64,000 bases of DNA, from positions 62,001-126,000 of the forward strand of contig NZ_JAVBXS010000100.1 in NCBI RefSeq assembly GCF_030824435.1, read 5' to 3'. This stretch comes from Rheinheimera sp. GTDB taxonomy: Bacteria; Pseudomonadota; Gammaproteobacteria; Enterobacterales; Alteromonadaceae. A program made the position numbers and the translations under genes. The notes beneath the pieces were generated by a model that was given only the letters and a program-made list of their open reading frames with translations, was not told where the DNA came from and ran no database searches. This document shows positions 7,197 to 10,406 of this stretch, in pieces. Positions within the stretch are counted from its first letter, which is position 1; each line of letters opens with the position of its first letter.

Positions 7197-9722
7197 ATGA
7201 ACATTAAAATGCTCCTGCTGCCGGCGTTACTGGCGCCGACACTTCAGGCAGAACCGTTTTTTTCGGAATATGTAGAAGGTACTTCAAACAATAAAGCGCT
7301 GGAAATTTATAATCCGGCCGAAACCGCGCTGGATTTATCCGGTTATTCCATCAAAGTGTTTTCCAATGGTGCTGTCACTGCTGGCAAAACCATCAATTTG
7401 TCTGGCCAGGTGGCAGCAAAGTCAGTGCTGGTGCTGGTCGATACCAGTGCAGAACAAGCTTTAAAAGACAAACAAAGTTCAGCCAGCCTGACACTGGGCT
7501 CGGGCAACTTTAACGGTGATGACGCCGTTGCTTTATATAAAGGCACCACCTTACTGGACGTGATTGGCCAGATTGGTCTGGATCCTGGCACAACCTGGGG
7601 CAGCACAGTCAAAACGCTGGACACTACCCTCGTGCGTAAAAGCAGCATCGGCAAAGGTGATAATGTAGCTGACGATGCTTTTGACCCGGCCGCTGAGTGG
7701 GACGGTTTTGCCGCCAATACTTACAGCAACCTGGGCAGCCATGCCGGTGGTACCGGTGGTGGCACTGAACCAGAGCCAGAAGAGCCGGTGCCAACCCCGG
7801 CCTTAGGCAGCTGTGGTGACGCCGCCAGCAAAATCAGCCTGATCCAGGGCGCAACTGCCGTATCAGCTGAAGTAGGTAAAACCCATATTATTGAAGCTGT
7901 GGTCACTCAGGTGCTGCCAACAGCAAATGGCTTTTTTGTACAGGAAGAAGCCGCAGATCAAGACGCTGACGCCAATACCTCAGAAGCAATTTTTATCTAC
8001 AACAGCGGTGTGACTGATTACCCACAACCAGGTCAAAAAGTGCGGGTGCAGGGTGTAGTGGAAGAGTTTTTCACGAAAACCCAATTAAAACGCAGCACTG
8101 CCCTGCTGGACTGTGGTGTCGGTGAAACTATTGCTGCGCTGAGCGTGACTTTACCTGTCAGCAACCTGAGCCAGTGGGAAAACATGGAGAGTATGCAGGT
8201 TGAATTTAACCAGACTCTGACTGTGGTCGATACTTACAACCTCGGCACTTATGGCGAGCTGACTTTGGCCTCAGAGCGGTTATTTACCCCAACCAATCTG
8301 TATCGCCCGGGCAGCGCCGAAGCTGTGGCACTGAGCGACCAGAACCGTCGGAATAAAATTGTGCTGGATGACCTGCAAAACGGCAAAAACCCGGCCAACA
8401 TTCTTTACCCAGCTCCTGGCCTGACCATGCAAAACCCGGTACGTAGTGGTGACAGCTTCAGCAATCTGCGTGGCACCCTGGATTACAGCTTCAGTGCCTG
8501 GCGTTTATTACCGGTCAGCGCACCACAACTGTTAAACACCAACCCACGCACCGAACAAGCACCGCTGAAAAATACCGGCACTTTAAAAGTCGCCAGTTTT
8601 AACGTGCTGAATTATTTTAACGGTGACGGCGCTGGTGCTGGTTTCCCAACCTCACGTGGTGCCAGTTCAGTGGCAGAGTTTGAACGTCAGTCAGACAAAG
8701 TGATTGCCGCTCTGGCCGCTTTGGATGCCGATGTGGTTGGTTTAATGGAAATTGAAAACGATGGTTATGCCGCCAGCAGCGCCATTGTTGATTTAGTCAG
8801 CAAACTGAATCAGCGTCTTGGCAGCACTGTGTATCAGTTTGCCCAGGTGCCAGGCTTAAACCTGCTTGGCAGTGACGAAATTGCCGTGGGTCTGATTTAC
8901 AAAACCGCCAAAGTGGCGCCTTTGGGTGCAGCTGTCACTAATAACACTGGTGTCTTTGCTTATGGCAACCGTCAGCCACTGGTACAGACCTTTAAACAAC
9001 TGTCAAACAACGAAGTCTTTACGCTGGCCGTGAACCACTTTAAATCAAAAGGCGGTTGTCCAAGCGGCAGCACCAATCCGGATCGTGATTTTAAAGACGG
9101 TCAGAGCTGCTGGAATGCTACCAGGGTGCAGGCTGCCAACGAGCTGATGACCTGGCTTGCCACTAACCCAACAGGTTCTGCCGATAAAGATGTGCTGGTG
9201 ATTGGTGACTTAAACTCTTACGCCAAAGAAGATCCAATCCACGCTTTTGTCAGCAACGGTTTTATCGACTTAGTGGGTAAATATCAGGGCAGCCATGGTT
9301 ATGGTTATGTGTTCAGCGGTGAAAGTGGTTATTTAGACCATGCGCTTGCCAGCACAAACTTATCTTCTCAGGTGACTTATGCCACTGAATGGCATATCAA
9401 TGCTGACGAACCTATCCTGTTCGACTACAACGTTGAAAACAAAACGCTGCAACAACAAAACGATTTGTATCAGCCAACCCAGTTCCGTTCATCTGACCAT
9501 GATCCTGTGGTGATTGAGCTGGCGCTGAAAACCGACAATCCGGCCGACTTCGATAAAGACGGTGATGTCGACAACAAAGATATCAGCCTGTTTAACAACC
9601 TGCTGCGCACCGGCGCTGTATTACCGCTGATTTATGACTTTAACAAAGATGGCAAAGTGAATTTGCTGGATGCCCGCGCCATGACTGCGCTGTGCACCTA
9701 TGCCCGTTGTGCCATTTACTAA
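7197..9722 (+). CDS. ExeM/NucH-family secreted endonuclease with C-terminal dockerin-like module
   Basis: This 841-residue protein starts at the ATG giving a clean signal peptide (cleavage after LQA). Domains in order: lamin-tail-like domain (about 20-140, FFSEYVEGTSNNKALEIYNP); an acidic/Pro linker near 180; an OB-fold-like DNA-binding segment (about 205-300); and an endonuclease/exonuclease/phosphatase domain (about 463-776) with VASFNVLNYF, EIENDGY, NHFKSKGG, GDLNSY and SSDHDPVV. Relatives such as Shewanella ExeM degrade extracellular DNA for phosphate. Relatives often end in a GlyGly-CTERM anchor. Here the tail instead has two calcium loops (DFDKDGDVDNKD at 784-795, DFNKDGKVNLLD at 814-825), a dockerin type I pattern. 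The next gene encodes a cohesin-like protein. Confidence 0.9.
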   Translation: MNIKMLLLPALLAPTLQAEPFFSEYVEGTSNNKALEIYNPAETALDLSGYSIKVFSNGAVTAGKTINLSGQVAAKSVLVLVDTSAEQALKDKQSSASLTLGSGNFNGDDAVALYKGTTLLDVIGQIGLDPGTTWGSTVKTLDTTLVRKSSIGKGDNVADDAFDPAAEWDGFAANTYSNLGSHAGGTGGGTEPEPEEPVPTPALGSCGDAASKISLIQGATAVSAEVGKTHIIEAVVTQVLPTANGFFVQEEAADQDADANTSEAIFIYNSGVTDYPQPGQKVRVQGVVEEFFTKTQLKRSTALLDCGVGETIAALSVTLPVSNLSQWENMESMQVEFNQTLTVVDTYNLGTYGELTLASERLFTPTNLYRPGSAEAVALSDQNRRNKIVLDDLQNGKNPANILYPAPGLTMQNPVRSGDSFSNLRGTLDYSFSAWRLLPVSAPQLLNTNPRTEQAPLKNTGTLKVASFNVLNYFNGDGAGAGFPTSRGASSVAEFERQSDKVIAALAALDADVVGLMEIENDGYAASSAIVDLVSKLNQRLGSTVYQFAQVPGLNLLGSDEIAVGLIYKTAKVAPLGAAVTNNTGVFAYGNRQPLVQTFKQLSNNEVFTLAVNHFKSKGGCPSGSTNPDRDFKDGQSCWNATRVQAANELMTWLATNPTGSADKDVLVIGDLNSYAKEDPIHAFVSNGFIDLVGKYQGSHGYGYVFSGESGYLDHALASTNLSSQVTYATEWHINADEPILFDYNVENKTLQQQNDLYQPTQFRSSDHDPVVIELALKTDNPADFDKDGDVDNKDISLFNNLLRTGAVLPLIYDFNKDGKVNLLDARAMTALCTYARCAIY

Positions 9723-9754
9723 CAGCGCCATTTACTAAATGTGCCATTTACAAA
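9711..9754 (+). repeat. Three short direct repeats across the nuclease stop codon
   Basis: GCCATTTACTAA occurs at 9711-9722 and 9727-9738, and GCCATTTACAAA at 9743-9754, a 16-bp period. The first copy contains the last codons and stop of the nuclease gene. It looks like a recent slippage or duplication product between two co-transcribed genes. Confidence 0.8.
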
Positions 9755-9767
9755 CAGGAATTAAAAA

Positions 9768-10361
9768 ATGATGTTTAAAACTTTATTTGCCGCCGCAGCG
9801 CTGCTGTTTTCACTGCAAAGCCAGGCCACTATCATCAATATTCAGCTGGACCAAAACCAATATGAAGTGGGTGACACTGTTACTGCTGAATTGTGGCTCA
9901 GCGATATTCAGGATCTGGTAACAGGTTTTGATGCCAGCCTGTTGTTTAACACTCAGTTATTACAACTGCAAAATGTCAGTTTTGGCGATTTCCTCAGCAT
10001 CCCAGCTGTTGGCAGCGATCGCGATTTTTTTGCCAATGGTGGTCAGCTGGACTTGTGGGAACTGTATTTTGGTTTTTCCACTGAAGATATGGCAGATTTA
10101 CGTGCCGTGCAGCCTGGCAATAACTTCCGTTTAGCCAGCATCAGCTTTACTGCGCTGAAAAACGGCTTAGCGAAGCTGCAACTGGGCTCGGCCAATGTGG
10201 TGTATGAACCTGTAGGCAACATGCCATATCTCGATATGGAAGTGCGCGCAGATCAGGCTCTGGTACAGATTGGTGATCAGGTCACTGCAGTCTCAGCTCC
10301 GACCACCGCCTGGCTGGTGCTGCCGGCACTGCTGCTGATGTTGCGTTTACGCCGTCGTTAA
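9768..10361 (+). CDS. Cohesin-like secreted protein with PEP-CTERM-type sorting signal
   Basis: This 197-residue protein follows the nuclease gene by 45 bp with an AGGA ribosome site. The signal peptide ends near SQA. The body (about 20-170) has the cohesin-domain pattern: YEVGDTVTAELWLSDI, then a GFDASLLFNTQLLQLQNV strand pair, and a late strand ISFTALKNGLAKLQLGSANV. The C-terminus VSAPTTAWLVLPALLLMLRLRRR (written here in parts: VSAP motif, hydrophobic segment, RLRRR tail) is the exosortase sorting-signal type in its VSAP variant. It probably acts as a membrane-tethered scaffold; the dockerin-like tail of the upstream nuclease is the obvious partner (inference). No exosortase gene is in the window. 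Cohesin identity is by pattern. Confidence 0.75.
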   Translation: MMFKTLFAAAALLFSLQSQATIINIQLDQNQYEVGDTVTAELWLSDIQDLVTGFDASLLFNTQLLQLQNVSFGDFLSIPAVGSDRDFFANGGQLDLWELYFGFSTEDMADLRAVQPGNNFRLASISFTALKNGLAKLQLGSANVVYEPVGNMPYLDMEVRADQALVQIGDQVTAVSAPTTAWLVLPALLLMLRLRRR

Positions 10362-10382: not shown

Positions 10383-10406
10383 AGCCGCCTTAGGGCGGCT
10401 TTTTTA
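10383..10406 (+). terminator. Terminator after the cohesin-like gene
   Basis: AGCCGCC (10383-10389) pairs with GGCGGCT (10394-10400) over a 4-base loop, followed by a T run. Confidence 0.85.

Follow-up and report, generated by a model that had tools for sequence, protein, structure and literature searches.

The stretch of DNA analysed here (64,000 nucleotides, hereafter the window) covers positions 62,001-126,000 of the forward strand of contig NZ_JAVBXS010000100.1 from Rheinheimera sp. (assembly GCF_030824435.1). Positions 7197-10361 of the window hold two genes, which, like all the features described below, lie on the + strand. The first is an exeM-type gene for a secreted, dockerin-tailed nuclease of 841 aa (7197..9722), and the second, which starts 45 bp after the stop of the nuclease gene, encodes a putative single-cohesin anchor protein of 197 aa (9768..10361). 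The initial annotation had described a dockerin-like nuclease tail with a cohesin-like neighbour 45 bp on, and we confirm this observation, with coordinates in agreement. An intrinsic-terminator-like hairpin followed by a T run lies directly 3' of the cohesin gene (10383..10400, fold z -1.3), and none of the terminator-like sites listed falls between the nuclease and cohesin genes. Such sites are not clearly in excess in the region (7 versus 5.1 in shuffles, sd 2.1), and promoter-like sites show no excess over shuffles.

The nuclease matches the model NF033681 (ExeM_NucH_DNase) with 649.8 bits for a cut-off of 300, over model positions 1-546 of 546. It begins with a signal peptide, read by eye (residues 1-18, 7197..7250), followed by a lamin tail domain (residues 20-125, 7254..7571; PF00932, E 1.7e-12) and by the ExeM/NucH nuclease domain with its endonuclease/exonuclease/phosphatase (EEP) catalytic fold (residues 232-777, 7890..9527; NF033681, and PF03372 with E 7e-9). 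The model for GlyGly-CTERM ExeM, NF033680, gives 405.7 bits, below its cut-off of 1300, and the C-terminus consists of a dockerin-type-I-like module (residues 783-841, 9543..9719). Two calcium-loop motifs with a spacing of some 30 residues, the arrangement that characterises dockerin type I, occupy residues 784-795 (9546..9581) and 814-825 (9636..9671), exactly where they had been placed initially. In A2, our alignment and profile of 51 dockerin tails, D14 and D25 of the first motif and D44 and D55 of the second are invariant. The module is closed by a C-x4-C cysteine pair (residues 833 and 838, 9693..9710), which is found in 44 of 53 dockerin-tailed ExeM and in none of the 55 other ExeM tails. 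When the whole nuclease is searched, Dockerin_1 (PF00404) matches residues 783-829 with E 7e-4 and 20.1 bits, short of its 22.9-bit cut-off, whereas the isolated tail passes it with 25.9 bits. The A2 profile matches PDB dockerins with a best E of 8e-11, which upholds the proposed identity of the tail; with weaker E values it further picks up EF hands of the calmodulin type.

The second protein has a signal peptide, read by eye from the sequence and the alignment (residues 1-20, 9768..9827), and a cohesin-fold domain (residues 21-170, 9828..10277). Taken alone, PF00963 (Cohesin) matches its residues 24-94 with 22.9 bits, under the cut-off of 24.1 (E 1e-4, and 2.5e-4 in a further search). A1, an alignment and profile of 44 small cohesin proteins (28 of which match PF00963 at E<=0.1), matches PDB cohesins with a best E of 1.7e-15. 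AlphaFold2 predicts the domain with pLDDT block means of 71 to 98, and among the matches listed by Foldseek for the predicted fold against the PDB, 50 of 50 are cohesin entries by title (best E 4.6e-10). The predicted structure and the A1 profile together identify a cohesin fold, and the cohesin-like character first ascribed to the neighbour is thus sustained. As far as sequence comparison goes, the single-sequence Pfam matches of the window dockerin and cohesin are marginal, but those of the family profiles A1 and A2 are not.

The cohesin protein ends in a PEP-CTERM-like sorting tail (residues 175-197, 10290..10358) made of VSAP, a hydrophobic stretch and RLRRR, in which V175 and P178 are conserved to 90% or more across the 44 aligned rows. 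Simple tail patterns (short motif, hydrophobic stretch, basic end) each fit 43 of these rows, and the sole failure of the second pattern is a row that is 10 residues short at its C-terminal end (L046 in alignments A1, A3 and A4). The Pfam PEP-CTERM model (PF07589) matches 31 of the 44 rows at E<=0.1, and has no match in the window protein at E<=1. Similarly, many of the 44 relatives match NCBIfam PEP-CTERM models while the window copy matches none at E<=0.01, and among the 17 NCBIfam model names listed none describes a cohesin anchor. Of the exosortase-type C-terminal signal claimed by the initial annotation, the residue pattern and the matches of relatives to PF07589 therefore hold up, but the window copy is without a Pfam match of its own.

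We analyzed the pairing of the two genes in 118 genomes of the family, which have 108 ExeM matches above the cut-off. Dockerin tails were called from a sequence pattern and an HMM built on 8 non-ExeM tails. The HMM splits the 108 ExeM cleanly into 53 with a tail (E<1e-7) and 55 without (E>=0.3); it superseded a narrower regular expression that caught a tail in 36 of the 108 ExeM and missed that of the window nuclease itself. The next gene downstream encodes a cohesin in 38 of the 53 dockerin-tailed ExeM and in none of the 55 tail-less ones, and the co-occurrence is thus non-random. The count includes 36 adjacent pairs found with HMMs from non-ExeM pairs alone (Fisher P 5.6e-16), to which two were added (L101 and L109) where the start had been called too early. 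The tail is also found in nucleases that have no cohesin neighbour, a situation named beforehand as speaking against the pairing: this concerns 15 of the 53. In 7 of their 15 genomes a strong cohesin match (E<=1e-12) lies elsewhere, in 7 more the only matches are weak and may represent other PEP-CTERM proteins, and in the last there is none.

Across the 118 genomes, a cohesin matched by A1 lies no more than 1.5 kb from 57 of the 86 PF00404 dockerin genes, on the same strand in 57 of 57 cases and downstream in 56. With Pfam models alone, 9 of the 15 small PF00963 proteins listed have a PF00404 match at a distance of up to 1.5 kb. PF00963 by itself detects few such proteins (at least 16 of the 118 genomes, the window's own cohesin being missing from the listing). 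Outside the family, 9 of 20 cohesin loci sampled class-wide are without a dockerin in their 1.5-kb flanks.

The same Rheinheimera genome carries two further dockerin-cohesin pairs, whose cargo is a second EEP-family enzyme and an M9 collagenase, and in relatives the cargo includes a porphyranase and an M43 protease. Since the pairs of this very genome involve a collagenase and another EEP-family enzyme, the use of the cassette is not confined to DNA digestion. The gene pair with a DNA-degrading enzyme that had been noted initially is real, and the interpretation built on it stands for the domains, the exosortase and the co-occurrence, but not for the restriction to DNA digestion. A further Pfam cohesin match falls within an RHS-repeat protein, encoded by a 1524-aa open frame on contig C38, and was taken as chance. 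A similar Pfam cohesin match was seen in a 1538-aa frame of another genome of the genus (G083).

The exosortase that the proposed anchored protein calls for is present in the genome (PF09721, E 2.6e-76). By eye, the genes around it appear to encode polysaccharide export, sugar transferase, deacetylase and glycosyltransferase-like functions. Counting one genome with only a partial match under the Pfam cut-off (G101), an exosortase (E<=0.001) occurs in 58 of 59 genomes with dockerins versus 35 of 59 others (P 1e-7), and in all 58 genomes with a strong cohesin versus 35 of 60 others. Among the papers of the library searched, none joins PEP-CTERM with dockerin or cohesin.

To judge from their sequence distances, the divergence of dockerins parallels that of cohesins, even among pairs inside one genome. 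Their distances correlate once those of the nuclease domains are partialled out (r 0.51, 38 pairs, 0 of 5000 permutations), and swapping cohesins between pairs of the same genome lowered the correlation in 22 of 22 cases (62 pairs, 14 multi-pair genomes). This co-divergence could also arise if the two adjoining stretches were transferred jointly as one DNA unit. AlphaFold2 models of a read-through chain gave a pTM of 0.61 for the window pair and 0.64 for a relative's pair, with no confident interface. We estimate such values to be about those of two well-folded, unoriented domains, and they therefore support no interface.

We consider it likely that the two genes form a cassette in which a single, exosortase-sorted cohesin retains a hydrolase through its dockerin tail, either at the envelope or within the exopolysaccharide. 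The nuclease would be exported via its signal peptide with the C-terminal dockerin attached, and the cohesin protein would likewise be exported, bearing its one cohesin. The exosortase would handle the latter through the PEP-CTERM-like tail, leading to its retention in the envelope or exopolysaccharide. With calcium present, the dockerin would bind the cohesin and the nuclease would be kept near the cell, presumably to its benefit. The initial annotation proposed that cells would thereby keep the breakdown products of the DNA. Such a cassette would fill the role suggested for the C-terminal anchor in other ExeM enzymes, except that the anchor and the enzyme are separate polypeptides. A study on Shewanella oneidensis (PMC6085458) reports that its ExeM remains at the cytoplasmic membrane even with the putative C-terminal anchor deleted, and a tether may therefore count for less than supposed.

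Binding could also occur as proposed while exosortase cleavage frees the cohesin protein into the exopolysaccharide, which would place the nuclease in the biofilm matrix and not on the cell body. The polysaccharide-type genes around the exosortase are consistent with this, but the same study (PMC6085458) places S. oneidensis ExeM almost solely in the cytoplasmic membrane fraction, and we give release into the matrix only tentative credence. We find it quite improbable that the cohesin protein does bind the dockerin but, instead of anchoring the nuclease, assists in its export or folding or inhibits it reversibly: the operon-like layout, with no terminator-like site listed in between, would suit such a partner, but the sorting-like tail, which a simple pattern recognises in 43 of the 44 rows, and the exosortase link would then serve no obvious purpose. 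Least probable of all is that the tail is a mere calcium-binding module for folding or stability and the cohesin-like protein an unrelated exosortase substrate co-transcribed by chance, as the 15 unpaired ExeM, the EF-hand matches of A2 and the absence of a predicted interface would allow, but the adjacency (38/53 versus 0/55), the same pairing on unrelated enzymes and the matched divergence of dockerin and cohesin argue against it.

We lean slightly towards the view that such cassettes make up a general display system of Gammaproteobacteria, which gives every secreted hydrolase a dedicated, adjacent, exosortase-sorted cohesin. It would amount to a dispersed, mix-and-match analogue of the cellulosome, located on the surface or in the matrix, with enzymes for DNA, collagen, other proteins and algal polysaccharides, and pair-specific contacts would prevent them from swapping places. 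Cohesin-dockerin tethering would then not be mainly cellulosomal, but common in these Gram-negatives as a means of keeping extracellular enzymes, including nucleases, near the cell. This would give one group of PEP-CTERM proteins a testable role, offer protein engineers a set of small cohesin-dockerin pairs matched by nature, and bear on who gains when extracellular DNA is digested in biofilms and plankton.

Cellulosomes are built on a multi-cohesin scaffoldin with a Gram-positive cell-wall anchor. As in the pairs of Clostridium and Acetivibrio, the enzyme studied here bears a dockerin with two calcium loops and its candidate partner has a cohesin fold. However, a cellulosome groups its polysaccharide-degrading enzymes on the several cohesins of a scaffoldin, whereas here the 197-aa protein has a single cohesin, the cargo is a nuclease (elsewhere a collagenase or other enzymes), and a PEP-CTERM-like tail takes the place of the cell-wall anchor. 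The cohesin protein resembles PEP-CTERM/exosortase surface proteins in its signal peptide, V-x-x-P motif, hydrophobic stretch and basic end, and in the exosortase of its genome, although the window copy falls outside the NCBIfam models at the threshold given above. Single cohesins are also known outside cellulosomes, in Clostridium perfringens GH33/NagJ (2vo8, 2jh2, 2ozn) and Archaeoglobus fulgidus (2xdh). The best Foldseek match of the window cohesin model is 2vo8, and 2ozn is listed with a NagJ chain as well as a hyaluronidase chain in which the dockerin profile finds a match. To go by their entry titles, the cohesins of C. perfringens belong to the glycosidases as modules, whereas in our case a small protein of its own, encoded by an adjoining gene, provides the cohesin. 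Finally, ExeM of S. oneidensis, as described in PMC6085458, belongs to the same nuclease family, with lamin tail and EEP domains, but has a putative GlyGly-CTERM/rhombosortase anchor on the nuclease chain, where the Rheinheimera enzyme has a dockerin and a separate cohesin protein.

The gene pair is real and widespread, and the cohesin-dockerin reading of the initial annotation is in our judgment its best explanation, with a putative binding whose use reaches further than DNA digestion. The nuclease gene (7197-9722, + strand, 841 residues) scores 649.8 bits with NF033681 (ExeM_NucH_DNase, cut-off 300) and encodes a signal peptide (read by eye), a lamin tail domain, the ExeM/NucH domain, and a dockerin-like end from about residue 783. 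Sequence and Pfam place the two calcium-loop motifs of this end at residues 784-795 and 814-825, where they had been proposed. The cohesin gene (9768-10361, + strand, 197 residues) starts 45 bases past the nuclease gene and encodes a signal peptide (by eye), a cohesin domain, and a tail composed of V-S-A-P, a hydrophobic stretch, and RLRRR, which is a weak PEP-CTERM. The closest small proteins in named records are from Rheinheimera (83 and 82% identity). A terminator scan that was not clearly above shuffles lists a terminator-like hairpin after the cohesin gene (10383-10400) and none between the two genes, which are thus likely on a single transcript. A 16-bp unit, repeated about three times in tandem (9711-9757), extends from the 3' end of the nuclease gene into the spacer between the two genes, the first copy encoding the final residues of the nuclease.

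Single-sequence Pfam scores are marginal (the window's small protein has 22.9 bits with the Pfam cohesin model, slightly under the cut-off of 24.1), and we therefore built two families: A1, with 44 small proteins encoded beside dockerin-tailed genes (37 next to ExeM, 7 next to others), and A2, with 51 tails. The top PDB matches of the A1 profile were cohesins (E 1.7e-15) and those of A2 were dockerins (E 8e-11), with calmodulin-type EF hands lower down, in line with the domains first proposed. The invariant aspartates of A2 correspond to residues 784, 795, 814, and 825 of the window's nuclease. Scanned individually (E<=0.1), 28 of the 44 A1 proteins match Pfam Cohesin and 31 match Pfam PEP-CTERM. 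Pfam Cohesin matches in two very long frames, one in an RHS-repeat protein of the window's own genome (locus L001, contig C38) and one in a genome of the same genus (G083:C11:101431-101595), are probably due to chance. The AlphaFold2 model of the window pair as one chain, with the intergenic stops read through, has a mean pLDDT of 87.1, and the best 50 of 136 Foldseek matches in the PDB (E<=0.001) are, judging by their titles, all cohesins, led by 2vo8, a cohesin module from a glycosidase of Clostridium perfringens (E 4.6e-10). The fused models have pTM of 0.61 (window pair) and 0.64 (a relative's pair), about what we estimate for two separate well-folded domains, so they predict no interface. 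A C-x4-C pair closes most of the dockerins (9693-9710 in the window) and is present in 44 of 53 dockerin-tailed ExeM and in 0 of 55 other ExeM tails. It is perhaps a disulfide; we know of no such ending in cellulosomal dockerins.

In a set of 118 genomes from the window's GTDB family, 88 have NF033681 matches above cut-off, and all 108 matches were examined (three cover the model only from about position 80). The dockerin and cohesin HMMs used to assess co-occurrence were made solely from non-ExeM gene pairs (8 tails, 7 small proteins), and hence the test is not circular. Dockerin tails were found on 53 of the 108 ExeM. An adjacent cohesin gene, with the same orientation and a start no more than 400 bp downstream, accompanies 36 of these 53 and none of the 55 others (Fisher P 5.6e-16, which is merely indicative because related genomes are not independent). 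Adding two loci missed because of a start codon set too far upstream (L101 and L109) brings the survey to 38/53 versus 0/55. Two tailless ExeM (L134 and L137) have an upstream cohesin gene, which belongs to the neighboring dockerin-tailed ExeM of the same genome; they are shorter second ExeM-type genes (491 aa, no dockerin) that follow the L036 and L045 pairs on their downstream side. The second ExeM above cut-off in the window's own genome (L110, C85:33111-34727, outside the window, 632 aa) has neither a dockerin tail nor a cohesin neighbor. Dockerin tails lacking an adjacent cohesin gene, which the initial annotation had set against its own reading, do occur, in 15 of the 53; seven of these genomes have a strong cohesin match elsewhere (G009, G022, G053, G058, G089, G093, G117), seven have weak matches only (G031, G037, G043, G068, G088, G100, G116), and one (G077) has neither a cohesin match nor an exosortase.

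The pairing extends beyond ExeM. Pfam dockerins (PF00404) occur in 59 of the 118 genomes, and for 57 of their 86 genes an A1 cohesin match lies no more than 1.5 kb away, always on the same strand and downstream in 56 cases. Conversely, 57 of 102 cohesin matches (E<=1.5e-12) adjoin a PF00404 dockerin, 11 adjoin a dockerin-tailed ExeM without a PF00404 match at E<=0.001, and 30 of the remaining 34, whose flanks were examined, have a dockerin-like neighbor (A2 HMM, E<1e-4). This amounts to 98 of 102, or 54 of 58 once the 44 matches that are themselves A1 rows are set aside. Gene order is reversed in six of the 30, and in three of these six (L184, L198, L205) the dockerin is not at the protein end. 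Relatives in which the cohesin gene comes first include L188, L190, L197, and L205. If only Pfam models are used and the two RHS-frame matches are excluded, 15 small proteins match PF00963 (Cohesin); 9 of them have a PF00404 match no further than 1.5 kb away, and 3 more adjoin a dockerin-tailed ExeM. PF00963 detects these proteins in few genomes (16/118, RHS matches counted). Class-wide, A1 matches (E<=1e-12) occur in 21 of 369 genomes, of which 3 belong to the window's family, and 11 of the 20 loci outside the family have a dockerin-like neighbor inside short flanks.

The window's genome itself has three pairs: that of the window nuclease, that of a second endonuclease/exonuclease/phosphatase-family enzyme (L003), and that of an M9 collagenase (L175). 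The dockerin stretch of L003 is 56% identical to the window's, and its small protein has 32% identity over 126 columns to the window cohesin protein. Relatives contribute 30 further dockerin-like proteins, ten of which were scanned for domains. Six of the ten are a porphyranase, an M43 protease, an M9 collagenase, a CBM6 protein, an IgGFc-binding-like protein, and a VWA protein; three have domains of other kinds, and one matched nothing. PF00404 was not listed at E<=0.001 for any of the ten, whose tails are called dockerin-like by the A2 HMM only. Given this variety, we regard the cassette as a general one that serves the nuclease among other enzymes. It is broader than the initial annotation supposed, since its cargo includes a collagenase, a porphyranase, and a protease.

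In the 38 ExeM pairs, dockerin distances correlate with cohesin distances (r 0.60), also once nuclease-domain distances are removed (partial r 0.51, 0/5000 permutations). We also swapped cohesin partners within single genomes, which holds the species constant, using 62 pairs from 46 genomes, 14 of which have more than one pair (part of the PF00404 pairs and 13 of the 30 pairs found by the A2 HMM are not included). All 22 single-genome swaps lowered the correlation, and 0 of 5000 joint shuffles reached the observed 0.61 (mean 0.33, highest 0.57). Such matched divergence fits dedicated partners; it also fits a dockerin end and the next gene moving as one DNA unit.

Exosortase matches (PF09721, E<=0.001) are present in 93 of the 118 genomes. 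The window's genome has one (E 2.6e-76), in surroundings that read by eye like an exopolysaccharide locus. Exosortases occur in 58 of 59 genomes with a PF00404 dockerin versus 35 of 59 without (P 1e-7), or in 57 of 59 if G101, a genome with a partial match under the cut-off, is scored as absent. Because dockerins lack a sorting tail, this association does not stem from the A1 profile itself. Within the 88-genome subset that has ExeM above cut-off, exosortases are found in 52 of the 53 genomes whose ExeM is dockerin-tailed versus 18 of the 35 others. The sampled genome of the same genus lacking an exosortase (G111) has no PF00404 or A1 match and no dockerin tail on either of its ExeM, one of which (L083) ends in a hydrophobic stretch and a basic end; it looks as if one anchor had been swapped for another.

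In an open-access library of 5.39 million papers, we found no paper combining PEP-CTERM with dockerin or with cohesin. Peer 2009, on non-cellulosomal cohesins and dockerins, may mention some of these proteins. As for exosortase and cohesin, one paper, on methanotrophic archaea, has both domain kinds in different sections and draws no link between them (PMC5244752). The word dockerin is absent from the Shewanella ExeM paper (PMC6085458). According to that paper, Shewanella ExeM is an endonuclease that needs calcium and magnesium or manganese; it carries a putative GlyGly-CTERM and resides at the cytoplasmic membrane, and it is still membrane-associated without this putative anchor, which counts against the tether reading (PMC6085458).
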